Assembly (NCBI GenBank): GCA_947628315.1
Contig: CANQZJ010000005.1
Span: 1 to 58,451, forward strand
Length of the DNA stretch: 58,451 nt
Source: an uncultured Oscillospiraceae bacterium
GTDB lineage: Bacteria > Bacillota > Clostridia > Oscillospirales > Oscillospiraceae
Direction of reading: 5' to 3'
The stretch's first letter is position 1, and each line of letters begins with the position of its first letter. Below, one piece after another: positions 25,992 through 37,683 of this stretch. The translations under genes and the position numbers were made by a program. Below the pieces are notes generated by a model. The model was given only the letters and a program-made list of their open reading frames with translations, did not search any database and had not been told where the DNA came from.

Positions 25992-26020
25992 ATTGTAACT
26001 TGTTTTGCGGGGCAAATCAA
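25992..26020 (-). promoter_or_regulatory. GH2-GNAT operon promoter
   Basis: On the minus strand TTGATT (26015-26020), 17 bp, TACAAT (25992-25997). Confidence 0.7.
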
Positions 26021-26047
26021 GACCCCCGGGACGATGCCCCGGGGGTC
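26021..26047 (-). terminator. Hairpin ending the oligopeptide transporter operon
   Basis: A 10-bp GC stem (26021-26030 with 26038-26047). Downstream on the minus strand the T content is modest (TTGATTTG), which doubles as the GH2 -35 region. Confidence 0.6.
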
Positions 26048-26055
26048 GGTTGCGT

Positions 26056-27300
26056 TCAGTCTGCCAGGGTGTAGGCACTGTGCAGGTTGGTGACGTCGGC
26101 GTCCTTGCCGTTGGAGTGGATGACCCCCTCCCGGCACCAGACGGTCCATATGCCGTCCTCCGCCAAGGCGTCTGCCGCGGCGGGGTCAAACTTCTCCGCG
26201 ATGTAGACGGGGGCCATGGACAGCGCCATCTCGGCGCAGCCGGCGTCCCGCGACCAGCACGTCAGGGTGGGCAGCGCGGCCTTGCACAGGCCGTCCGCCG
26301 GATCCAGGAAGGTGGTGCGGATATCGCCGTCTGACATCTCGTAGCAGCGCCACTCGTCCTGGGAGGACAGGGGGAAGCTCCGCAGGGAGACGAGGGCGGC
26401 GGGCGACGCATACTCCAGGGCGCCGGCGACGAGATAAGCGCTCTCCGGGCGGTCAAAGAGGTTCAGGGAGTACCGGCCGCCCCGGTCGTCCAGGTTGCGG
26501 ACGAAGCCGTCGTAACTGGTGAGGGCGCCGTGGGTGTAGCCCGCGCCGGTCAGCTGCTCCGCCAGATAGTCGGCGGAAAAGGCGTTGGTCATCCAGGAGA
26601 GATCCAGCAGACAGGTCAGCTCGTTCTCCTGGAGAAAGGCCAGGTACTCCGCCGACACGTTCAGCCGCACCTGATCGTTCCCCAGCAGCTCCAGGTCGAT
26701 GGAGGCGGGATCCCCGGCAAAGGCGGCGATCTCCCCGTAGAACTCCGCGATCTCGGCGCTCTGCCGGGGGTCGAAGTCCGCGGTCTGCCAGTCCTCCGTG
26801 CAGGAGAACAGGGTGTCGTACCGCTCGTGGATGGGGCCCAGGTAGATGGATCGCTCTCCGCTGCGCCGGATCAGGTCAAAGGCGCGATAGAGGGCGTCGT
26901 CCACGGTGAACACCGTGTTGGGGCTCTGCGCGAGGTCGTAGAGATTGGTCACGCCGTCAAAGCTCTGATAACAGTTGAACAGCCGGTAGGCGGTGTGGGC
27001 GGCGGTGCTGTAGAGGGCCGCCACCGCCCGGTACTCCGCCGAGGCGGACTGCCCGCCGGCGCCGATCTCATACAGAAGGGTGAAATCGCCGGCGCAGCTC
27101 TCTCCGGTGGAGCCGACGGCCTCGATGGTCTGCCAGCCGGACTGGCGGCTCACCAGAGAGTACACGCCGTAGGCGATGGCCGCCACCGCGATGACCAGGA
27201 ACACCGCCGCGCCGATCAGGCGCAGCCGGTTCTCCTTCCAGATCTCTCCGAGCCGCCTCCCCTCGCGGGGGCCGCCCGATCCTTTTGATGTCTGTCCCAA
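26056..27300 (-). CDS. Unrecognised membrane-anchored protein following oppF
   Basis: About 414 residues; no family recognised. A basic N-terminus (about 1-25) is followed by one transmembrane helix (about 29-50) and a large, acidic outer domain of about 360 residues rich in aromatic residues and with several cysteines (for example in NCYQS, LFSCTED, TCLLDL, GLCKAAL, TCWSRDAGC). The repeated pattern of Asp-Leu-Tyr and long helices hints at a sensor or substrate-interacting domain, but this is guesswork. The start is taken as TTG at 27300, 2 nt after the oppF stop, implying translational coupling; an in-frame start inside oppF is possible but would be basic and proline-rich shadow sequence. 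It ends the transporter operon. Confidence 0.6.
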   Translation of the reverse strand: MGQTSKGSGGPREGRRLGEIWKENRLRLIGAAVFLVIAVAAIAYGVYSLVSRQSGWQTIEAVGSTGESCAGDFTLLYEIGAGGQSASAEYRAVAALYSTAAHTAYRLFNCYQSFDGVTNLYDLAQSPNTVFTVDDALYRAFDLIRRSGERSIYLGPIHERYDTLFSCTEDWQTADFDPRQSAEIAEFYGEIAAFAGDPASIDLELLGNDQVRLNVSAEYLAFLQENELTCLLDLSWMTNAFSADYLAEQLTGAGYTHGALTSYDGFVRNLDDRGGRYSLNLFDRPESAYLVAGALEYASPAALVSLRSFPLSSQDEWRCYEMSDGDIRTTFLDPADGLCKAALPTLTCWSRDAGCAEMALSMAPVYIAEKFDPAAADALAEDGIWTVWCREGVIHSNGKDADVTNLHSAYTLAD

Positions 27301-27302
27301 GG

Positions 27303-28604
27303 CTAAATGATGGCCAGCGCCAGCAGGATGAGGAAGATCACCAGGATCACGGCGAGGGTGACCAGGCCGATGATCGCGCCTTTCCAACACGCCTTATAGT
27401 TGCGGATGTAGTTGAAGTGCCGGAAGATCAGCGCCCCGATGATGCCCAGGATGGGCAGCAGGAAGGACAGCACGGAATACCAGATGGAGCCGGTGTCGTG
27501 GGTGGGGGCGGCCAGGAACTGGTCGTCCGCCTCGGTGACCACGGCGGCCTCCGCCACAGAGGCGGTGGCCTCCTCGGGGGAGGCGATGGTGATGGCCTGG
27601 ACGGGGACGTCCTTCTCACGGAGGGCCTTGTACTCCTCGATCTCCTTTTTGTTGCCGTAGACCCAGTGGTCGTGGCCGATGTTCACGAACTCCGGCTTAT
27701 CCACGCTGTAGTCATGGATGGAGGGGTCGTAGGTGTAGAGCACCTTGTTCTTCTCCAGCCGGGGATCGGGGATGGGGATGGCGGAGATGAGGGAGTGGGT
27801 GTAGGGGTGCAGGGGGAAGTTGAACAGCTCGTCGGAGCTGGCCACCTCCACGATGCGGCCCTTGTAGATGACGCCGATGCGGTCGGAGATGAAGCGCACC
27901 ACGGACAGGTCGTGGGCGATGAACAGATAGGTCAGGCCCTTTTCCCGCTGGAACTTCTTCATCAGGTTCAGCACCTGGGCGCGGATGGACACGTCCAGAG
28001 CGGAGATGGGCTCGTCGGCCACCACCAGCTCCGGCTCCATGACCATGGCCCGGGCGATGCCGATACGCTGCCGCTGGCCGCCGGAGAACTCATGGGGATA
28101 GCGGGTCAGATGCTCGGGGAGCAGACCCACCTCCTCGATCATGGTCTCCACCTTGTGGACGCGGTCAGCCTCGTTCTCGAACAGGTGGAAGTTGTACAGG
28201 CCCTCGGAGATGATGTAGTCCACGGTGGCGCGCTCGTTCAGGGAGGCGGCGGGATCCTGGAACACCATCTGCACGTTGCGGATGACCTCCCGATCCAGGG
28301 AGTGGGGGATCTTGCCGGAGATCTTGATGCCCTTGTAGTCGATCTCGCCGGCGGCCAGGGGATTGACCCGGATGACGGCGCGGCCGATGGTGGTCTTGCC
28401 GGAGCCGGATTCGCCCACCAGGGAGAAGGTCTCGCCCTTGTAGATGTCGAAGGAGGCGTCGGTCACGGCGCGGACGGCGTTGTCGCCCTTGCCGAAGGTG
28501 ATGTCCACATTCTTGACGGACACCAGGATCTCCTTGCCGTTCTCGGCGATGGGGCCCTTCATCTCATGGAGAGTGCCCGCCTTTACATTCGCTGTGTTAG
28601 CCAA
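27303..28604 (-). CDS. oppF: Oligopeptide ABC transporter ATPase (OppF/AmiF type) with C-terminal membrane tail
   Basis: 433 residues. The ATPase core (about 1-330) matches streptococcal AmiF closely: Walker A GESGSGKT (64-71), Q-loop [13 protein letters not shown], signature [14 protein letters not shown], Walker B with [10 protein letters not shown]-loop IAHDLS. AmiF ends near residue 308 in memory; here a linker of about 45 residues (alanine/glutamate rich) leads to two predicted transmembrane helices (about 376-394 and 409-432), unusual for a peripheral ATPase. The start is TTG at 28604, because AAAGGAGG lies 8 nt upstream and the GTG at 28613 is inside that site. It overlaps oppD by 8 nt. 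Confidence 0.88.
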
Positions 28605-30375
28605 GCTCGGCACCTCCTTTGTCCTGGATGTTGAACGCCGACATCAGCTTTCCGTGGATGTTGTGGATGCTGTCCGGCTTGTCGATTTTGGGGGAGCGGG
28701 GATCCAGCAGCCAGGTCTTGGCGAAGTGGGTCTCGCTGACCTGGAACATGGGGGGCTCCTCCAGGGTGTCGATCTTCATGCAGAAGGGGTTGCGGGGGGC
28801 GAAGGCGTCGCCCACGATCTGATTGTACAGGGAGGGCGGCGTGCCGGTGATGGAGTAGAGCTCGCTGCCCGACTGCGCCAGCTGGGGCAGGGAGGACAGC
28901 AGCGCCCAGGTGTAGGGGTGCTTGGGATCGTAGAACACGTCCTCCACGGTGCCCAGCTCGATGACCTGGCCGGCGTACAGCACCGCCACACGGTCGGCGA
29001 TGTTGGCCACCACGCCGAGGTCGTGGGTGATGAACACGATGGTGTAGCCGAACTCCCGCTGCAGCTCCTTGATGAGCTGGAGGATCTGGGCCTGAATGGT
29101 CACGTCCAGAGCGGTGGTGGGCTCGTCGCAGATGAGGATCTTGGGCTGGCAGGACAGGGCGATGGCGATGACGATACGCTGGCGCATACCGCCGGAGTAC
29201 TGGAAGGGATAGTCGTCGAACCGCTGCTCGGCCTTGGGGATGCCCACCTTGCGCATCATCTCCAGGGCGCGGCGCCGGGCCTCGGCCTCGGAGCAGCCCT
29301 GGTGGCGGATGATGACGGAGGTGATCTGCTTGCCGATGGTGATGATGGGGTTCAGGGAGGTCATGGGATCCTGGAATACGGTGGCGATCCGGCGGCCGCG
29401 CACCTGGGCCCAGTCCTTGGGGAACTTCATGTTGGCCAGGTTCAGGATGCAGGTGCCGTGGAGCTGCTCCGGGGTCTCGTCCAGGTAGCGGACGCGGAAC
29501 ACCACGGTGTCGAACACGGCGTTGCGCTGGTTCTCATCGTTCAGATCCACGCCCATCTCCATGGCCTTTTTCAGGGATTTTACCAGCTTGCGGGCCAGCT
29601 GGATCCGCTGGTGCAGCGGATAGCGCCCCACAGACAGGTAGATCTCCTTGGCCAGGATCTCATTGCGCTTTTCGGTCTCCGGGCTGATTTGGCCGCCCTG
29701 GATCTCCTGGGCGCGCTTTGCCTTCAGCTCGGCCATTCTCGCGTTATACTGGGACAGATACGCGGAGTCGTGCGCCACGGCGGCGGCCTTTTCCTTGGCA
29801 AGGCGCTCGTTCCGGGCCTTCAGATCCTTGATCTCCTTGTCCAGCCGGCTGATGGTGTCGCTCAGTTCCTTGATCTGCGCCTTTTCCTTGTGGGGATCCA
29901 GCGTCTGCTTCAGGTTGAAGGCGTCGGTGCGCTGACGGGTCAGCTCTTTCACCTCGTCCTCAGCCTCTTTGGATTCCTCGGCGCTGAGGCCGCACTTTTC
30001 CTTCTTTTCGCGCTCCAGAGTCAGGATATCCCGGTAGGTTGCGGCGCCGAACTCCAACTTGGAGTGCTCGTTCAGCTTTTTCCGCGACCAGTCGATCAGC
30101 GGATTGGCCAGGCCGTTGAGCTTGACCACGGTGTCGGCCAGTTCGTCATCGTTGAAAATGAGTTTGCCCTCGCTGATGAAGCCGTTGGAGTCCAGCATGC
30201 CGGCAAAGGTCTTGGTGAACACCGACTTGCCGGAGCCGGACTCGCCCACGATGGCGATGGACTCGCCCTCGTAGATGTCCAGAGAGATGCCGCGGATGGC
30301 GGTCAGGATACGGCCGCGGACGCGGAACTTTACATGCAGATCCTTGACGGACAGCAATACTTTTTTCTCTTCCAC
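28597..30375 (-). CDS. oppD: Oligopeptide ABC transporter ATPase (OppD/AmiE type) with ~240-residue coiled-coil-like insertion
   Basis: 592 residues against about 355 for AmiE. Walker A GESGSGKS (44-51) is followed by a highly charged insertion (about 75-318) with long Lys/Glu/Leu heptad-like stretches (about 115-240), before the fold resumes at the Q-loop [12 protein letters not shown] (about 333-344). Then come the signature [15 protein letters not shown], Walker [12 protein letters not shown]-loop ITHDLGV, and the C-terminal peptide-transporter extension (SVSETH-like [12 protein letters not shown]). Catalytic residues are intact, so it should work as an ATPase with an added protruding arm. 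The start is GTG at 30375 with GGAGG 7 nt upstream. Confidence 0.92.
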
Positions 30376-30387
30376 TGCTGTCCCTCC

Positions 30388-31374
30388 TTACATGTGGGTC
30401 CGCGGGTCGGACGCGTCGCCCAGGTTCTGGCCGGTGACGTACAGCACCACGGTGATGACAGAGGCGACGGCCACCGGCGTCCAGAACTCCCAGCCCCAGC
30501 CGGGGGTGACCATGGCGTTCTGCGCCTCGTAGATCAGGCGGCCCAGGGAGGCCTCGGTCATGCCCAGCCCAATGTAGGACAGGAACACCTCGGAGGAGAT
30601 GTAGCCCGGGATGGCGGCGGCGATCTCCAGCACGATGACGGAGGTCATAAAGGGCAGGATGTTCTTGGTCGCGATCTTAAAAATGCTGGTACCCAGGCAG
30701 CGGGAGGCCAGATTGTACTCGTGGTCGCGGATGATGATGACACGGGTGCGGATGTAGTAGGCCATGCCCAGCCAGCCGATGATCGTCATGGCGAACACCA
30801 GCGTCCAGAAGCTGGGGGAGAACACCATGACCAGCACGGAGATAAACAGGGTGGAGGGGACGTTGCCCAGGACGTTGTAGACCTCGTTCATGATCATATC
30901 CACCCGGCGGGAGAAGCCCCACACGGCGCCCAGCAGCGTGCCGATGGTCATATTGATGGCGGCGCAGATGACCGCCAGGCTGATGGAGATGCGGGAGCCG
31001 TTCCAGATGGAGTCAAAGGTGGAGGCGCCGGTGCCGCCGGTACCGAAGATCCACTTCAGGGCCGGGCCAAAGTGGTCGAAGGCCTTGGTGGGGCTCAGGT
31101 GCATGGCGCCGGAGTCGTTGACGTTGATGAAGGGGTTCACCTGGGGATCGTAGTGGATCACGACGGGGTAGATGTACGCGAAGGCCACCAGCACCGCCAG
31201 CAGAACCAGCACCACGATGTTGACCTTGTTGCGGAAGAACACGCGGAACACGCTTCTCCAATAGGAATAGCGGGGCGCGGTGATCTTTTCAGACTCCAGC
31301 TCGTTGTGGTCGATGACGGAAAACAGCTCCGCGTCGGTCAGGCCGTATTTCTTGTTCAAGTCCATATCAGTCAT
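30388..31374 (-). CDS. oppC: Oligopeptide ABC transporter permease (OppC/AmiD type)
   Basis: 328 residues with six transmembrane helices. The N-terminal ITAPRYSYWRSVFRVFF and C-terminal GQNLGDASDPRTH segments are those of streptococcal AmiD. The EAA-type cytoplasmic loop that docks to the ATPases is around EYNLASRCLGTS. A loop of about 60 residues lies outside between helices 1 and 2. It pairs with OppB to form the peptide channel. It starts 6 nt after oppB with GAGGTGAGG upstream, and its stop overlaps the oppD ribosome binding site. Confidence 0.94.
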   Translation of the reverse strand: MTDMDLNKKYGLTDAELFSVIDHNELESEKITAPRYSYWRSVFRVFFRNKVNIVVLVLLAVLVAFAYIYPVVIHYDPQVNPFINVNDSGAMHLSPTKAFDHFGPALKWIFGTGGTGASTFDSIWNGSRISISLAVICAAINMTIGTLLGAVWGFSRRVDMIMNEVYNVLGNVPSTLFISVLVMVFSPSFWTLVFAMTIIGWLGMAYYIRTRVIIIRDHEYNLASRCLGTSIFKIATKNILPFMTSVIVLEIAAAIPGYISSEVFLSYIGLGMTEASLGRLIYEAQNAMVTPGWGWEFWTPVAVASVITVVLYVTGQNLGDASDPRTHM

Positions 31375-31380
31375 CGTGCC

Positions 31381-32976
31381 TCACCTCGCTTTCTCTGTGA
31401 AGGAGATCCGCGGATCCACCATGGCCATCAGCACGTCGCCCAGGATCAGGGACAGCACGGACAGGATGGCGTAGAACAGCGTCACGCCCACGATGACCGC
31501 GTTGTCATACTGGTTGATGGCGTCGATCAGCAGGCCGCCGGCGCCGGGAACCAGGTACACGCGCTCGGTGATCAGAGCGCCCGTCATGGCGAACAGCAGG
31601 GAGCCGGGGATGCCCTGGATGATGGGGATTGCGGCGATCTTCATGATGTGCTGGAAGAAGATCTCGGTGTCGTTCATGCCGCCGGATCGGGCGAACTTCA
31701 CGTAGTCGGAGTTCATCTGGTCGATCATGTAGCGGCGCATCCACTTCATCATGCTGGCGATGGAGGGCAGCGCCAGCGAGACGATGGGCAGGACGTACAT
31801 CAGTTTTGTGACGTTGTCCATGTCAAAGGTGGAGGGCAGGCCGGCGGCGCGGCCGATGCCCTTGAAGATGAAGATGTACGCCAGGGAGGGCACAGCCGAG
31901 ATGAACATGATGTACACCGTGCCGATCTTGTCGAACAGGCCCTCTTTGTACCGGGCCATGATGACGCCGATGGGCAGGCCCAGGATGTAGACAAAGATGG
32001 TGGAGATGATGCCGATCACAAAGGAGTAGCCCATACGGGACATACTGACGTTGTTGGTGCTCACGTTGGTGTAGTCATCCGTATACCGCTGCTCATTCAG
32101 GGCGTTGGCCGTTCTGGAGCCGGCCAGATATGTGGCGGTGTGCAGGTTGTCCGCGCTCATCTCCACGTGCCCCGTGGGGTAGGTGATCAGGGACTGCGAC
32201 CAGGAGCCCTGGCTCTTGGTCATGGTCTGGAACACGTCCACGCCCTGAGTGACGGAGAAGGACGTGCCCAGATGGATGGTGAGCAGGTTCTGGTGGAGAT
32301 AGGGGAAATTGCCGTCGAAGTAGAGCAGGTACTTATGGAGCGTACCGTTGCCGATGATGGCGGGAGAGAAGTGCTGCTCTCCCGTCTCGGGGTCGACGGC
32401 GAGGGGATCATATAGTGTAAAGGTCAGGCCGCGCTCTCCGATGTCCTCGGTCTCGGGAACGTAGTGGATGTTGTCCACCTGGAACAGGCCCCCGAAATAC
32501 GACAGGAACCGCTTGATGACCGAGTAATCTTTATAGGCGAAAAGCTGTGCCTGGCCGCCTTTGGCAAGTTTACCGCGAAGAACCAGGGCGCCCAGTCTGG
32601 TGACTGTGTACCCCTGGGACTCATAGTACTCTGTGAATTGCTTGACATATTTGGCGGTCAGCTCGGAGTCGTTGGAGCCGTCTTCCGCCCGGCCCAGGGA
32701 GACAGCGTCAGCCCGGGTCTCCTCGTCGATCTCACCGTTCCGGGTGAGTTCGTTCATGTAGTCGGCATAGGGGACGTAGTCCAGGTAACCGAACTCCTCC
32801 CACCGCCTGTACCGGTACACGACGCGGGCGTTGTTGGCCTGCTTGGTATAGTTGCCGTCCGCCGCGAACACCTTGTCGCGGTTCATCAGGCCGTAGACCA
32901 ACAGCATAACGATCAGAATCACAAGGAGGATCGACACGATACCGTGCAAGAGCCGTTTCAAAACATATTTCGTCAT
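31381..32976 (-). CDS. oppB: Oligopeptide ABC transporter permease (OppB/AmiC type) with large ectodomain
   Basis: 531 residues. Helix 1 (about 9-31) is followed by an external domain of about 280 residues, then five helices from about residue 310. Streptococcal AmiC (about 498 residues) has a comparable external insertion, and matching landmarks can be seen (KYLLYF, F-HQN, a PTG segment). The ATPase-docking loop is near DYVKFARSGGMNDTEIF, and the C-terminus ends LGDVLMAMVDPRISFTEK as in the Ami family. The start follows a weak GGTAGG site. This ectodomain marks the system as Ami type rather than enterobacterial Opp type. Confidence 0.93.
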   Translation of the reverse strand: MTKYVLKRLLHGIVSILLVILIVMLLVYGLMNRDKVFAADGNYTKQANNARVVYRYRRWEEFGYLDYVPYADYMNELTRNGEIDEETRADAVSLGRAEDGSNDSELTAKYVKQFTEYYESQGYTVTRLGALVLRGKLAKGGQAQLFAYKDYSVIKRFLSYFGGLFQVDNIHYVPETEDIGERGLTFTLYDPLAVDPETGEQHFSPAIIGNGTLHKYLLYFDGNFPYLHQNLLTIHLGTSFSVTQGVDVFQTMTKSQGSWSQSLITYPTGHVEMSADNLHTATYLAGSRTANALNEQRYTDDYTNVSTNNVSMSRMGYSFVIGIISTIFVYILGLPIGVIMARYKEGLFDKIGTVYIMFISAVPSLAYIFIFKGIGRAAGLPSTFDMDNVTKLMYVLPIVSLALPSIASMMKWMRRYMIDQMNSDYVKFARSGGMNDTEIFFQHIMKIAAIPIIQGIPGSLLFAMTGALITERVYLVPGAGGLLIDAINQYDNAVIVGVTLFYAILSVLSLILGDVLMAMVDPRISFTEKAR

Positions 32977-33010
32977 AACCTACCAACTCTCTTTACATGG
33001 TCGGATACTG

Positions 33011-33050
33011 CGTGGAAAAAGCAGAAGGGGGCGGGGAATACCCCGCCCCC
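33011..33050 (-). terminator. Partial terminator between oppA and oppB
   Basis: A perfect 10-bp GC stem (33027-33036 with 33041-33050), loop AATA, and on the minus strand a T-rich stretch ending in TTTTT (33013-33017 region). It would let the binding protein be made in excess of the permeases. Confidence 0.8.
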
Positions 33051-33096
33051 TTCCATTGGATTCTGGGGTGTTTTGCCTATGAAGACAGGGACGCGA

Positions 33097-35346
33097 TCAA
33101 TAGATACCCACGTTCTGCATCATGCCGCCGTCGGGGAGCATGGTGTCGAGGTAGGTCTGAGCATCGCCGTAGTCGGGGCCCCAACCGGAGGAACCGCCGA
33201 AGTCGAAGTTGAAGCAGTAGCCGCGGTCGCCATAGTAGGAGGCGTAGCTGGCGGTGTCGGAGTCAGGAGCGGACACCAGGTCGATGACGACGCGGTTGCC
33301 CAGAGCGGACTCGATGGACTGCTTCATAGCCTGGTCCATAGCGGCGCCGATGGTGCTGTAGTCACGGTACACATAGTCCAGGTGGATGGGGTTCTCGGCG
33401 CTGACCTCGATGCCCTCAGCAGCCAGCTCCTCCACGGCCTTGTCCATATACTGGGCAGCGGCATCGGGGTTGTACCAGCCGTCGAAGCCATAGCTGGCGC
33501 CGGCGCCGTCGTTACCAGCGGGATCCCAGACCTTGATGGGGAAGCCGTCGGCGTCAATCTGAGCCTGCAGAACCTCGCCATAGTAGGTGCCGGCGGGGAA
33601 GGTGGTGGGAGTGCCGTTGATGTCGATGGTGAACTCCGCGGCGGACAGAACGAAGCTGCCGGGCACGTAGGAGTTGGTCAGAGCGGCGTACTTCAGATCC
33701 TCGCCCACGCTGGCGGCGTTGACGGTGGCGCGGTCACGGGCAAAGGCCAGAGCCAGACGGAAGTTCTGGTTCAGCTTCGCGGCATCCGCGCGCGCGGCCA
33801 TATCCATGGTCTGCGCGGAGCGCATGACGGACTCGTCATTGAAGTTGGCGTAAGCGTAACGATGGATGTTGACCCAGTTCAGGAAGGAGGTGTTGTCCTC
33901 CAGAACCACGTAGGCGTACTTGTCGAAGTAGGTCTTGCCGTCGGGATCGTCGGGCACCGCGGTGGCCTTGGCCTGCTCCAGGGCGGCGGAGCCCAGGCCG
34001 CACCCGCCGTTGAAGGTGCCGTCCATCACGTTGTTCCAGGTGAACAGAGGATCAGAACCGTCGGAGTAACGGAAGGTCACGGTCTTGATCTGGACGTTGT
34101 CCGCATCCCAGTAGGAGGGGTTGGCGGTGAAGGTCATGGTGTTCTGATAGGTGTAGTTGGACACCAGATAGGGGCCGCAGTAGGCGATGTGCTGATAGTC
34201 CTTGCCGAAATTATAGTCAGCGGCGGAGGAGTCGAAATCGGCGCCGAACTTGCCGCCCTGGGACTCATAGTAGCTGCGGCTCATGGGGGCCAGAGCGCTG
34301 TAGCCGGTCAGGGTGATCAGCCAGGGAGAGGCATAGTCCAGAGTGAGCTCCAGAGTGTAGTCGTCGAGCGCCTTCACGCCGACCTGGCTGAAGTCGGTGA
34401 CCTCACCGGAGACATAGTTGGCCAGGTTGGTGACGGGGGCCAGAACGCTGGACAGGGTGCCGCCGCAGTCAGCGGCGTGCTGGACAGCCGCCACCCAGTC
34501 GTCGGCGATGACGTCGGCGACCTCACGGCCCTGATAGTCCACCCACTTCAGGCCCTGCTTGATCTTGAAGGTGTAGGTCAGGCCGTCCTCAGAGACGGTG
34601 TAGCTCTCAGCCAGAGCGGGCTGCTGGATGTTCTCAGCGTCGTAGGCCAGCAGGCCTTCCCAAGTCATGGACAGGGGAGCGCCGGTCGCGGTCTGGTTGG
34701 TGGAATAGGTGTCCCAGGTGGTGGGCTCATAGCCGGAGGTGTAGGCCAGGGTGTAGCTGTCAGCCAGGGTGTAGCCGTTGTCGGCAGCCCACTGCTTGGC
34801 CCAGTCATGCCAGGTGCCGGTGCCGCTCAGCTCGCCCCACTTGGCGGTGAGCTCGGAGCGGACGGAGGGCTCCAGGTACTGATCGGTGATCAGCAGGCCC
34901 TTGTAGGAGCGGTAGTCGCCGTCAAAGCCCCAGTCCACAGAGGGGACGCTGTGGGGGATGATCTTGCTGATGGCGTAGTTGCCGGCGTTGTTCTCATAGG
35001 GGAAAACAGCGCCGGACTCCAGCAGCTTGGCCTCGGCCACGGCCATCAGGCCCATGCGCTCGCCCTGGTCGTAGTTCTCGAGGGCGACCTCATAGTACTT
35101 ACGGAACTCGCCGAACACCTGCTCATACAGGGTGTCGGAGATCTCGTAATGGGCGGCCTCGTCAACGGCGTCCTGGGTGTTGACGTCGGCAGCCAGGCGG
35201 TCGTCGACCTCGGCGGCGGGCTCGGTGGTAACGGGGGCGTCAGTGGGATTCTGAGCGGGGCCGGGGCCCTGCCCGGTCTTGCCGCAGGCGCACAGTGCGA
35301 ACACCATGACCAGCGCCAGCAGCAGAGCAAGGATTCTCTTCATCAT
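33097..35346 (-). CDS. oppA: Oligopeptide-binding lipoprotein, apparently circularly permuted (OppA/AmiA type)
   Basis: 749 residues. A lipoprotein signal ends in LCAC (lipid on Cys21), followed by a Pro/Thr linker (22-60). Residues about 68-170 then look like the end of a normal AmiA/AliA protein: a helix, an AEAKLLESGAVFPYE stretch, SKIIP, and YKGLLITDQYLEPSVRSELTAKW. After a linker (171-197) the normal start of the family appears (YTLAYTSGYEPTTWDTY, then VSEDGLTYTFKIKQGLKW, about 251-268) and runs to SSGWGPDYGDAQTYLDTML. The protein stops at QNVGIY, where family members continue for about 110-130 residues. The fold is therefore probably complete but rearranged. It starts with ATG-ATG 6 nt after GGAGG. 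Confidence 0.85.
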   Translation of the reverse strand: MMKRILALLLALVMVFALCACGKTGQGPGPAQNPTDAPVTTEPAAEVDDRLAADVNTQDAVDEAAHYEISDTLYEQVFGEFRKYYEVALENYDQGERMGLMAVAEAKLLESGAVFPYENNAGNYAISKIIPHSVPSVDWGFDGDYRSYKGLLITDQYLEPSVRSELTAKWGELSGTGTWHDWAKQWAADNGYTLADSYTLAYTSGYEPTTWDTYSTNQTATGAPLSMTWEGLLAYDAENIQQPALAESYTVSEDGLTYTFKIKQGLKWVDYQGREVADVIADDWVAAVQHAADCGGTLSSVLAPVTNLANYVSGEVTDFSQVGVKALDDYTLELTLDYASPWLITLTGYSALAPMSRSYYESQGGKFGADFDSSAADYNFGKDYQHIAYCGPYLVSNYTYQNTMTFTANPSYWDADNVQIKTVTFRYSDGSDPLFTWNNVMDGTFNGGCGLGSAALEQAKATAVPDDPDGKTYFDKYAYVVLEDNTSFLNWVNIHRYAYANFNDESVMRSAQTMDMAARADAAKLNQNFRLALAFARDRATVNAASVGEDLKYAALTNSYVPGSFVLSAAEFTIDINGTPTTFPAGTYYGEVLQAQIDADGFPIKVWDPAGNDGAGASYGFDGWYNPDAAAQYMDKAVEELAAEGIEVSAENPIHLDYVYRDYSTIGAAMDQAMKQSIESALGNRVVIDLVSAPDSDTASYASYYGDRGYCFNFDFGGSSGWGPDYGDAQTYLDTMLPDGGMMQNVGIY

Positions 35347-35459
35347 TGGTTTCCTCCTTAAAAAATATCTTTAACCTTCGGCGGCGTCCGCACGTCTGCA
35401 CGGGGCGGCCGGGAGATTAAACCCGGAAAGGCCCTGTTTTCACTTTACTACGCGAAAGT

Positions 35460-35477
35460 GTCCCGGTATACCGGGAC
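35460..35477. repeat. 18-bp perfect palindrome in the opp leader
   Basis: GTCCCGGTATACCGGGAC, in the untranslated leader upstream of oppA. No T tract follows on either strand. Confidence 0.8.
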
Positions 35478-35480
35478 GAA

Positions 35481-35502
35481 ACGGCCTGCGGCCGCAGGCC
35501 GT
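35481..35502. repeat. 22-bp perfect palindrome in the opp leader
   Basis: ACGGCCTGCGG joined to its exact inverse CCGCAGGCCGT, 3 nt from the other palindrome. It could be an operator or an RNA hairpin. Confidence 0.8.
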
Positions 35503-35565
35503 AATGCCGCTTCGCACGTGGCAGAAATACAACTGTCCGCAAAGTGTAAACAAAGCATACACCAT

Positions 35566-35593
35566 ATTTTATACGAAACCGCCTGTTTGTCAA
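35566..35593 (-). promoter_or_regulatory. Oligopeptide transporter operon promoter
   Basis: On the minus strand TTGACA (35588-35593), 16 bp, TAAAAT (35566-35571). It implies a leader of about 210 nt that carries the two palindromes. The 410-bp gap between oppA and etfA holds this promoter, the palindromes and the etfA terminator; I see no gene in it. Confidence 0.75.
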
Positions 35594-35660
35594 TAGTTTT
35601 TTTGCTCAATTCGTTTCATATAAAGGTATTGCATTCTGGCAGGATTCCCATCTTTTGCAA

Positions 35661-35704
35661 GAAATGACGGGAAAATGTCATTTTTTCCGTAGAAATGACG
35701 GAAA
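35661..35704. repeat. Repeated GAAATGACGG motif upstream of the opp promoter
   Basis: GAAATGACGG occurs at 35661 and again at 35692, with an inverted TGTCATTT between them. It lies 70-110 bp upstream of the opp -35, a possible activator site. Confidence 0.5.
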
Positions 35705-35741
35705 GGCGGCGTCCGAAACGGGGGTTCCGGACGCCGCCTTT
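35702..35741 (-). terminator. Butyrate operon terminator
   Basis: A 14-bp stem (35702-35715 with 35728-35741), 12-nt loop. On the minus strand the stem ends in TTT but no longer T run follows. Confidence 0.75.
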
Positions 35742-35757
35742 GGCGATATGTCACAAA

Positions 35758-36864
35758 TTACGCCTTGGAGGCCTTGTACTTCGCGATGGCCTCGGTGAGC
35801 ATGGGGCCGACCTTGAACAGGTCGCCCACGATGCCGTAGGTGGAGGCGTCGAAGATGGGGGCGGAGGCGTTCTTGTTCACGGAGATGATGACCTCGGAGT
35901 CCTGCATACCGGCCAGGTGCTGGATGGCGCCGGAGATGCCCAGGGCAACGTAGATCTTGGGGTGGACGGTCTTGCCGGTCTGGCCCACCTGGTGATCCTG
36001 GCTGATGAGGCCGGCGTCCACCACGGCGCGGGAGGCGCCTACCACGCCGCCCAGCACGTTGGCCAGCTCCTCGGCGATCTCGATGCCGCGCTTGGGATCC
36101 TTGCTGATGCCGCGGCCCACGGAGACGACCACGTCGGCGCCGATCAGATCCACCAGCTTCTTGGCGGACTTCTTGATCTCGATGAGGTCAACGTGGATGT
36201 CGTCGGAGGTGAGCTGCACGTCCACCTTGACCAGCTGGGTCTTTGCGGCGGTCTCCTCGTTGTAGGGGGCGGTCTGCATCACGCCGGGGCGGACGGTGGA
36301 CATCTGGGGGCGGTAGTCCGGGCAGACGATGGTGGCCATCAGGTGGCCGCCGAAGGCCGGACGGGTCATCTTCAGGTTCCTGGTGTCCTCGAAGGCGGTG
36401 TTGTCCACGTCGATGGTGGAGGTGGTCTTGAGGAAGGCCTTGTACTTCTCCACGTCGATGTCCAGGTGGGTGCAGTCGGCGGTGAGGCCGGTGTGCAGCC
36501 GGGCGGCCACACGGGGGCCCAGGTCGCGGCCGATGTTCGTCGCGCCGATGAGGAAGATCTCGGGCTTGTACTCCTCCACCAGGTCGCAGAGGACTTTGGT
36601 GTAGGCGTCGGTGGTGTAGTCCTTCAGCAGGGGGTGGTCGCAGACGTAGACCTTGTCGGCGCCGTAGCCGCCCAGGGCTTTGGCGAACTGCTCGTTGACG
36701 CCGCTGCCCAGCAGCACACCGCACAGCTCCACGCCCAGGTCGTCGGCCAGCTTGCGGCCCTCGCTCAGCAGCTGATAGCCGGTGCCCAGGATGACGCCGT
36801 CCCGCTGCTCACAAAATACCCACACGCCCTTGAAGGCGGCGGTGTCTTTACTGTTAAAAGCCAT
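35758..36864 (-). CDS. etfA: Electron transfer flavoprotein alpha subunit
   Basis: 368 residues. The FAD-binding C-terminal domain is clear: GLISQDHQVGQTGKTVHP (about 288-305) and YVALGISGAIQH. The N-terminal part carries an extension typical of clostridial EtfA. With EtfB and Bcd it forms the complex that in C. kluyveri and Acidaminococcus oxidises NADH, reduces crotonyl-CoA, and passes a low-potential electron to ferredoxin. Last gene of the operon; GGGAGGAG precedes the start. Confidence 0.95.
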   Translation of the reverse strand: MAFNSKDTAAFKGVWVFCEQRDGVILGTGYQLLSEGRKLADDLGVELCGVLLGSGVNEQFAKALGGYGADKVYVCDHPLLKDYTTDAYTKVLCDLVEEYKPEIFLIGATNIGRDLGPRVAARLHTGLTADCTHLDIDVEKYKAFLKTTSTIDVDNTAFEDTRNLKMTRPAFGGHLMATIVCPDYRPQMSTVRPGVMQTAPYNEETAAKTQLVKVDVQLTSDDIHVDLIEIKKSAKKLVDLIGADVVVSVGRGISKDPKRGIEIAEELANVLGGVVGASRAVVDAGLISQDHQVGQTGKTVHPKIYVALGISGAIQHLAGMQDSEVIISVNKNASAPIFDASTYGIVGDLFKVGPMLTEAIAKYKASKA

Positions 36865-36879
36865 GTTTCCGCTCCTCCC

Positions 36880-37683
36880 TTAAATGATGTGCTTCTCGCC
36901 CAGGATGGACACCAGCTGGTCGCAGGCGGCCTTGTCGGCGCCCTCCATCATGGTGCCCTTGCCCTTCACGGGCGGGGAGAAGGACTTGTAGACCTGGGTG
37001 GGGGAGCCCTTCAGGCCCACCTGCTCCACGGTGATGGCGGGGTCGTCGGACAGGGCGTTGAAGTCCCACACGGTGTAGGGCTTGGCGTAGCATCCCATAA
37101 TGCCGGAGACGCTCATATACCGGGGCTCGTTCAGCTCCTTGATGCAGGTGAGCACGCAGGGGGTCTGCACGCCGATGGTCATGTAGCCGTCCTCCAGGGC
37201 GCGGCGGACGGTCAGCCGGCCGTTGGAGTAGTCGATGGCGGTGACGTAGGTGACCTGGGGCAGGCCCAGCTTCTCGGCGATCTGGGGGCCCACCTGGGCG
37301 GTGTCGCCGTCGATGGCCTGGCGGCCGCACATGACGATGTCGTCCTTGTCCACGCCGATCTTGTTGATGGCGGCGGTGAGGGTGGAGGAGGTGGCCCAGG
37401 TGTCGGCGCCGCCGAACTCCCGGGCGGAGATCAGATAGGCCTCGTCGGCGCCCATAGCCAGGCACTCCCGGAGCATGGACTCCGTGGGGGGCGGGCCCAT
37501 GGAGACCACAACGACCTTGACGTCCTTGTCGGCGTCCTTCAGCTGGAGGGCGGCCTCCAGGGCGTTCATATCGTCGGGGTTGGAGATGGTGGCCATAGCG
37601 GCGCGATCCATGGTGCCGTCCTCTTTCACGGCCACCACGCCGGAGGTATCGGGCACCTGCTTCACACAGACAATGATTTTCAT
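36880..37683 (-). CDS. etfB: Electron transfer flavoprotein beta subunit
   Basis: 267 residues starting MKIIVCVKQVPDT, the standard EtfB opening. The nucleotide loop CGRQAIDGDTAQVGPQIAE (about 123-141) is of the type seen in bifurcating EtfB proteins, which bind a second FAD in place of AMP. This assignment rests on the clostridial context as well as the motif. It lies between bcd and etfA with a GGAGG site. Confidence 0.95.
   Translation of the reverse strand: MKIIVCVKQVPDTSGVVAVKEDGTMDRAAMATISNPDDMNALEAALQLKDADKDVKVVVVSMGPPPTESMLRECLAMGADEAYLISAREFGGADTWATSSTLTAAINKIGVDKDDIVMCGRQAIDGDTAQVGPQIAEKLGLPQVTYVTAIDYSNGRLTVRRALEDGYMTIGVQTPCVLTCIKELNEPRYMSVSGIMGCYAKPYTVWDFNALSDDPAITVEQVGLKGSPTQVYKSFSPPVKGKGTMMEGADKAACDQLVSILGEKHII

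Follow-up and report, generated by a model that had tools for sequence, protein, structure and literature searches.

Evidence for a circularly permuted Ami-type oligopeptide-binding lipoprotein in Oscillospiraceae and for further permuted lineages of its family

We examined a 58,451-nucleotide stretch of DNA from an uncultured Oscillospiraceae bacterium (GCA_947628315.1, contig CANQZJ010000005.1, positions 1 to 58,451; hereafter the window), in which a reverse-strand gene for an oligopeptide-binding lipoprotein is followed by oppB, oppC, oppD and oppF (Table 1). The open reading frame (ORF) begins with MMKRIL, carries an LCAC-G lipobox and ends with MMQNVGIY, the stop codon standing directly after the GWGPDYGDAQTYLDTML segment, as an earlier reading of the letters alone (the sequence-only reading) had described. 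Residues K3, A20 and C21 are invariant across 17 homologues from the same genus. The sole Pfam domain above its cut-off is SBP_bac_5 (PF00496), matched at residues 242-741 by profile positions 3-365 of 368 with 117.9 bits against a cut-off of 32.4; two other rows, one of them at residues 160-215, are at chance level (E 0.14 and 0.25). We take this family, family 5, to be the "cluster C" binding proteins. The sequence-only reading had placed AmiA-type C-terminal features at residues 68-170, ahead of an ordinary N-terminal part starting near residue 198, and had proposed a circular permutation in which the last module was moved to the front.

In a single-sequence phmmer comparison with solved structures, residues 193-748 matched AliC, AliB and AmiA from near the N-terminus to about position 500, and residues of about 80-170 fell on the chain C-termini in all three printed alignments (AliC 522-602, AliB 521-606 and AmiA 532-618). 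Against 177,635 distinct PDB sequences, a 27-sequence profile of the N-terminal module gave six matches at E up to 10, all of them C-termini of family-5 binding proteins: AliC 519-630 of 633 (1.6e-11), AliD 504-613 of 627 (4.1e-11), AmiA 518-625 of 638 (5.5e-10), AliB 515-614 of 626 (1e-9) and, near the C-terminus, two MppA chains (0.35 and 0.38). Further, when the module (43 sequences) was compared profile to profile with 13 canonical Ami-type relatives in 21 sliding windows, the C-terminal window reached 99.3% (E 7e-21) and the three windows overlapping it 96-99%, compared with at most 9.4% for all windows ending at or before residue 525. Separate module and core profiles, built from 43 of 48 permuted proteins (L060, L096-L099 and the 13 canonical proteins being left out), placed the module before the core in 48 of 48 distinct proteins of the permuted class to which the window protein belongs (T1) and after the core in 13 of 13 canonical proteins. 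Every module of the parent protein is present once, cyclically shifted, and the chain ends with the core and has no second copy of the module; the window protein thus departs from the canonical chain order, Domain I-II-I-III-I, in which the last Domain I segment is C-terminal. The closest solved relatives are AmiA, AliB, AliC and AliD, with 31-34% identity over residues 193-749 in a VIA-align structure comparison; these residues superpose on AmiA, and the structure matches reported are sequential. The profile searches and the module order in 48 homologues therefore bear out the proposed permutation, with the module aligning to Ami-type C-termini and residues 193-749, matched from about 193-198, aligning to the rest of AmiA, AliB and AliC.

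Pfam would agree with a different history, in which an ordinary binding protein shed its C-terminal part and acquired an unrelated domain at the N-terminus: it sees only SBP_bac_5 at 242-741 and otherwise chance-level rows. The N-terminal stretch is, however, homologous to exactly the part that is missing, and we regard this explanation as extremely improbable; at the sequence level, an extra N-terminal domain combined with truncation is refuted by the profile-profile and PDB profile searches. Because the SBP_bac_5 model itself ends at the break, the Pfam annotation of a permuted protein looks complete. An assembly or binning artefact might be suspected, as the window comes from a fragmented genome (198 contigs, 76.8% complete) and the related records are mostly metagenome-assembled genomes (MAGs). 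The 48 distinct T1 proteins come, however, from separate genomes or records, one of which (L034) bears the title of a Pseudoflavonifractor strain, not of a MAG, and oppB lies downstream in 26 of 26 T1 loci (L031-L056; 39-64% identity), which leaves an artefact with practically no credibility. For T1, as for the lineage T3 described below, many independent assemblies rule it out.

A further alternative accepts the permuted sequence but has the moved module dock on a neighboring molecule in a domain-swapped dimer. AliC was crystallized as a domain-swapped dimer, though with another hinge (AliC 290-294; 8qlh; PMC11192437). AF2, run on a single chain, predicts most of the displaced module with confidence, which argues for folding within one chain, and we consider such a dimer improbable. 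Overall, we conclude with a probability of roughly 93% that the window protein is a circularly permuted Ami-type family-5 oligopeptide-binding lipoprotein whose moved module refolds in its usual place. Against this reading, the module scores weakly in single-sequence comparison (2.6-5.8 bits); a search of the locus of the T1 protein L060 found no opp gene; and the anchor linker is about 40 residues long, so that the shifted attachment discussed next may have little effect.

In AliD, Lobe 1 comprises Domain I (29-63, 191-296 and 583-617) and Domain II (64-190), and Lobe 2 is Domain III (297-582); the C-terminal helix a19 (622-652) packs on Lobe 1 (PMC11192437). Taking AliD residue numbers as chain position + 25 (our own mapping), the T1 cut aligns with AliD at about 526-529, within Domain III. 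By these published limits, the canonical order would keep Lobe 2 continuous and Lobe 1 split, with the lipid anchor on Lobe 1, and the T1 order would make Lobe 1 (Domains I and II) continuous and split Lobe 2 while keeping the two lobe crossings; the lipid anchor of T1 has probably shifted from Lobe 1 to Lobe 2. The old C-terminus, consisting of the end of Domain III, the last piece of Domain I and the terminal helix, thus follows the lipobox and the loose linker and runs on into the old N-terminus, and the chain now ends in the loop after the GWGPDYGD strand. In the mechanism that we propose, the moved module would fold back to its usual place to give an ordinary two-lobed Venus-flytrap, which would take a peptide by its N-terminus and pass it to OppBC/DF. 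The N-terminus of the peptide is clamped by W498/D501 in AliD, W500/D503 in AliB and W504/D507 in AmiA (PMC11192437). W722 and D725 of the window protein match the AliD clamp residues by motif and do not vary in sets of 17 and 27 sequences. The AliD pocket residues I603 and N608 lie, by the same mapping, in the segment that the moved module carries, and G122, G140 and D142 of the module are invariant (27 sequences). The AF2 model ma5d8a089fc50 predicts helices 63-89 and 94-110 in the first part of the module; those predicted at 160-173 and 179-189 may be the counterpart of a19, judging from their position and the alignment with AliC 519-630.

The strong terminator noticed within about 50 bp of the stop codon corresponds to a terminator-like hairpin with a 15-pair stem that starts 42 nucleotides past the stop. 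A scan gave 6 terminator-like sites against 4.8 expected, among which the hairpin at 33055 stands out with much the longest stem. About 220 nucleotides of leader (35346-35566) separate the promoter-like site from the start codon. An Rfam scan of positions 26000-37000 of the window returned no match, so this leader holds no known RNA family. By length and position, OppB corresponds to an AmiC-like permease with a large extracellular part; oppB lies downstream in L057 and L058 too, the closest of the canonical loci (40-41% identity). Wherever OppD could be read among the T1 operons of L031-L056 (22 of 22; it was unreadable in L035, L036, L039 and L053), 287-483 residues lie between Walker A and signature, and, counted apart from these, the gap is 350 residues in the window; the OppD proteins of canonical L057 and L058 have a gap of 116 and no insertion. 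Because T1 is one clade, the insertion may reflect shared history and not function. The C-terminal extension of OppF past oligo_HPY includes two hydrophobic stretches resembling membrane helices by eye, an unusual feature for a soluble ATPase.

Table 1. Features of the oligopeptide-binding lipoprotein gene and its operon in the window
Feature	Coordinates	Strand	Basis
Gene for permuted oligopeptide-binding lipoprotein, 749 aa (P0001), class T1	33097..35346	-	ORF, Pfam, profile searches
Signal peptide and lipobox LCAC; lipidated Cys is residue 21	35284..35346	-	lipobox read by eye
Flexible P/T/A/E-rich linker between lipid anchor and fold, residues 22-62	35161..35283	-	sequence; pLDDT mostly <50 over residues 1-56
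Displaced module part 1, residues 63-120, which in canonical Ami proteins end Domain III (Lobe 2); putative new N-terminus of the fold	34987..35160	-	aligned with AliD from chain position 504; domain limits from PMC11192437
Displaced module part 2, residues 121-159, which in canonical Ami proteins form the last segment of Domain I (Lobe 1)	34870..34986	-	profile alignment; limits from PMC11192437
Residues 160-190, predicted as two helices at the place of canonical C-terminal helix a19	34777..34869	-	predicted helices 160-173 and 179-189
Join of old C-terminus to old N-terminus, residues 191-196	34759..34776	-	match of old N-terminus begins at residue 193-198
Core, residues 197-749, holding the first two Domain I segments, Domain II and the larger part of Domain III; new C-terminus NVGIY	33100..34758	-	Pfam, PDB sequence and structure comparison
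W722-D725, W-x-x-D motif, counterpart of peptide-clamp Trp/Asp	33172..33183	-	alignment; role from PMC11192437
Terminator-like hairpin between binding-protein gene and oppB	33022..33055	-	15-pair stem
Promoter-like TTGACA-16-TAAAAT	35566..35593	-	2 sites in 26800-35800 against a chance expectation of 2.0
OppB permease, 531 aa, about 330 residues ahead of BPD_transp_1 (from 333), as in AmiC	31381..32976	-	Pfam
OppC permease	30388..31374	-	Pfam
OppD ATPase, 592 aa, about 230-aa insertion between Walker A and signature	28597..30375	-	motif spacing
OppF ATPase, 436 aa	27303..28613	-	Pfam

The T1 order recurs in related genomes, where the sequence-only reading had suggested looking for it: full-length T1 homologues, whose chain order was checked, occur in 17 of 37 genomes of the window's genus and in 0 of 23 others of the order. 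T1 was found in 8 of 150 genomes of a family sample (colinear match ranges only, one of them 96-749) and in 5 of 391 genomes drawn evenly from the class (E up to 1e-25); the window's own genome is included in the genus, family and class counts. A scan of 84,980 species gave at least 27 T1 loci (L031-L056 and L060), with record titles naming Lachnospiraceae, Oscillospiraceae, Ruminococcaceae, Clostridiaceae and others, including one Bacilli MAG (L056, 31% identical). A quick tree from the longer alignment sets T1 apart as one clade from 13 canonical Ami-type proteins (SH-aLRT 95), and in a quick tree of segment A T1 lies on one side of a branch with a support of only 63; both trees have long branches (L056, L081 and L100), in which case, the program warns, the starred branches count less. 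We take the canonical order to be ancestral because the OppA-type outgroups are canonical apart from the cases (T2-T4) described below. The N-terminus of the T1 homologue L099, MKCISRRDFMKGMVVGG, resembles a twin-arginine signal and has a lipobox-like LSACG further on; the signal, if real, would imply export after folding.

Further permuted lineages were found among 130 solute-binding protein (SBP) ORFs (118 distinct), which were sorted with four segment profiles made from 21 ordinary canonical proteins and then compared with solved structures. Only some of the T1 and Ami-type canonical proteins showed segment C with the generic segment hidden Markov models (HMMs), and 32 of 118 read just A-B2; the T1 module HMM was used where the generic segment-C HMM failed. 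The window's own genome encodes three PF00496 proteins, of which L182 is canonical and L183, in which the generic HMMs missed segment C, is only partly classified. Lineage T2 (L064, 304-1959, and L126) has the module first and ends in NNDAQFGR or NNDMQFGK, and its cut lies in the same loop as that of T1, but in the OppA branch. Residues 99-547 of L064 align with OppA 15-450, its module (39-96) only weakly with OppA 463-520 (i-Evalue 3.2), and its residues 41-106 with 573-638 of canonical L071 (52% identity, 7e-16). In lineage T3, residues 366-609 of L069 (4002-5846) align with DppE 52-284 (2e-31), 58-225 with 291-442 (4e-15) and 260-323 with 448-512 (2e-9), and the two halves are about 80% identical to those of L071 with their order swapped. 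Lineage T4 (L107, L108 and L112) is cut between OppA positions 364 and 367, since 214-563 of L107 align with OppA 17-364 (2e-81) and 56-195 with 367-507 (7e-26). T2 was detected in 1 of 245 class genomes and T4 in 3 of 391 (in a search aimed at T1); G123, from the same group as the T4 genomes, had no match. An assembly artefact is ruled out for T4 by three genomes, one of them single-contig (G095), and for T2 by two genomes (L064 and L126).

The three distinct cut points alone imply at least three permutations. In the segment-A tree, a quick tree of 117 proteins, the five labels need four changes, and the starred branches alone force four for the canonical label. For T2-T4 we placed the cuts in Domain III by their OppA and DppE positions, taking Domain III of OppA to span about 271-486 in the Salmonella protein. 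All four cuts (T1-T4) apparently lie in Lobe 2; were cuts uniformly distributed, the chance of this would be about 4% (0.46^4, estimated from the limits of AliD), which is only suggestive.

The T3 genus contains both chain orders. Among 81 genomes drawn from it, 29 matched at E<=1e-60: 16 permuted over the full length (L069, L155-L165 and L176-L179), 4 permuted in part, 8 canonical and 1 too short to tell. The four partial matches (1-582, 1-551, 183-614 and 206-614) each span the junction of the old ends, and the eight canonical ones consist of two blocks with 63-82% identity to the permuted query. Segment order was confirmed for the 16 permuted and 8 canonical loci and for 4 further canonical loci from elsewhere. 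In T3, some nine residues connect the old C-terminus, ending in PLGYKYF, with the old N-terminus; the chain now ends near NINEPLLP, a point past which canonical proteins continue. The gene follows oppF in 14 of 16 T3 loci and in 12 of 12 canonical loci; the most distant T3 locus, L176 (49% identical), showed no opp gene within the 2.4 kb upstream, and the upstream flank of L177 is only 149 bases long. A tree of T3 with its canonical relatives does not place T3 on one side of a branch (two changes), but because a single T3 clade is not rejected (p-AU 0.231), we do not claim several T3 origins.

Why the permuted order persists can be read in two ways. In a neutral account, to which we give an even chance, tandem duplication followed by loss of the ends produced the permutation and nothing was gained from the shift of the anchor. 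The length of the anchor linker (about 40 aa) is consistent with this, as is the T3 genus, in which both orders occur, mostly in the same syntenic place, so that transport seems possible with either. Against neutrality stand the origins counted on the tree (at least four) together with the apparent, and only suggestive, placement of all four cuts in Lobe 2, and the remark by the authors of the TpMglB-2 study that their permuted proteins are mostly tethered (PMC4990184). Rather doubtful, in our view, is the idea that permutation is a recurrent, selected move in family-5 lipoproteins of Clostridia, in which a cut in Lobe 2 would each time make Lobe 1 continuous, shift the tether to Lobe 2 and change presentation of the loaded protein to the permease. 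The T3 genus, with both orders beside the same oppBCDF genes, is a natural experiment on whether chain order and side of tether matter to an ABC importer, in which this idea could be tested directly.

Literature searches, which mostly excluded subscription papers, found no report of a permuted family-5 binding protein; oligopeptide, solute, ABC transporter, periplasmic and lipoprotein were all without a match in the available portion of the CIRPIN paper (PMC12667903), as were permutation terms in the OpuAC paper (PMC2861598). The statement of the sequence-only reading that no permuted peptide-binding lipoprotein had been described thus holds for family 5 as far as searched, but permuted binding lipoproteins as such are known. 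TpMglB-2 (Tp0684, "Type Ic / Cluster Bc") is an ABC-importer lipoprotein with a natural circular permutation that retains ligand binding, and similar permutants occur, according to its authors, in Gram-positive bacteria, many of them gut commensals (PMC4990184). In TpMglB-2 the first three strands of the N-lobe went to the C-terminus and the chain gained a fourth lobe crossing, whereas in T1 the C-terminal module has moved to the front, probably with two crossings kept. Further, the Pfam, PDB sequence and structure matches of the window protein are to family 5 and not to the cluster B sugar-binding fold of the TpMglB-2 class. CPSARST likewise related glycine-betaine-binding to molybdate-binding proteins by permutation, but in other folds and with identity below 24% (PMC2395249).

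Within family 5, AmiA, AliB, AliC and AliD of Streptococcus pneumoniae (8a42, 8qlj, 8qlh and 8qlc) share with T1 the fold, the C-terminal module, the W/D clamp and a large AmiC-like OppB, but have the module at the C-terminus and the lipid anchor on Lobe 1; the window protein differs in the place of the module and probably in that of the anchor. The OppA- and DppE-type SBPs of Bacillus subtilis (8are and 8ay0) are the best solved relatives of T2, T3 and T4 and, unlike these, have the canonical order. The peptide-binding proteins of family 5 are well studied, yet one permuted clade and at least three further, separate permutations are seen here; because the Pfam model ends at the T1/T2 break, permutations in the family may have gone unnoticed, and naming by family profile can hide topology. 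Natural permutation of binding lipoproteins is known from the systems above; the new elements are its occurrence in family 5, how far it has spread there and that it has arisen repeatedly.
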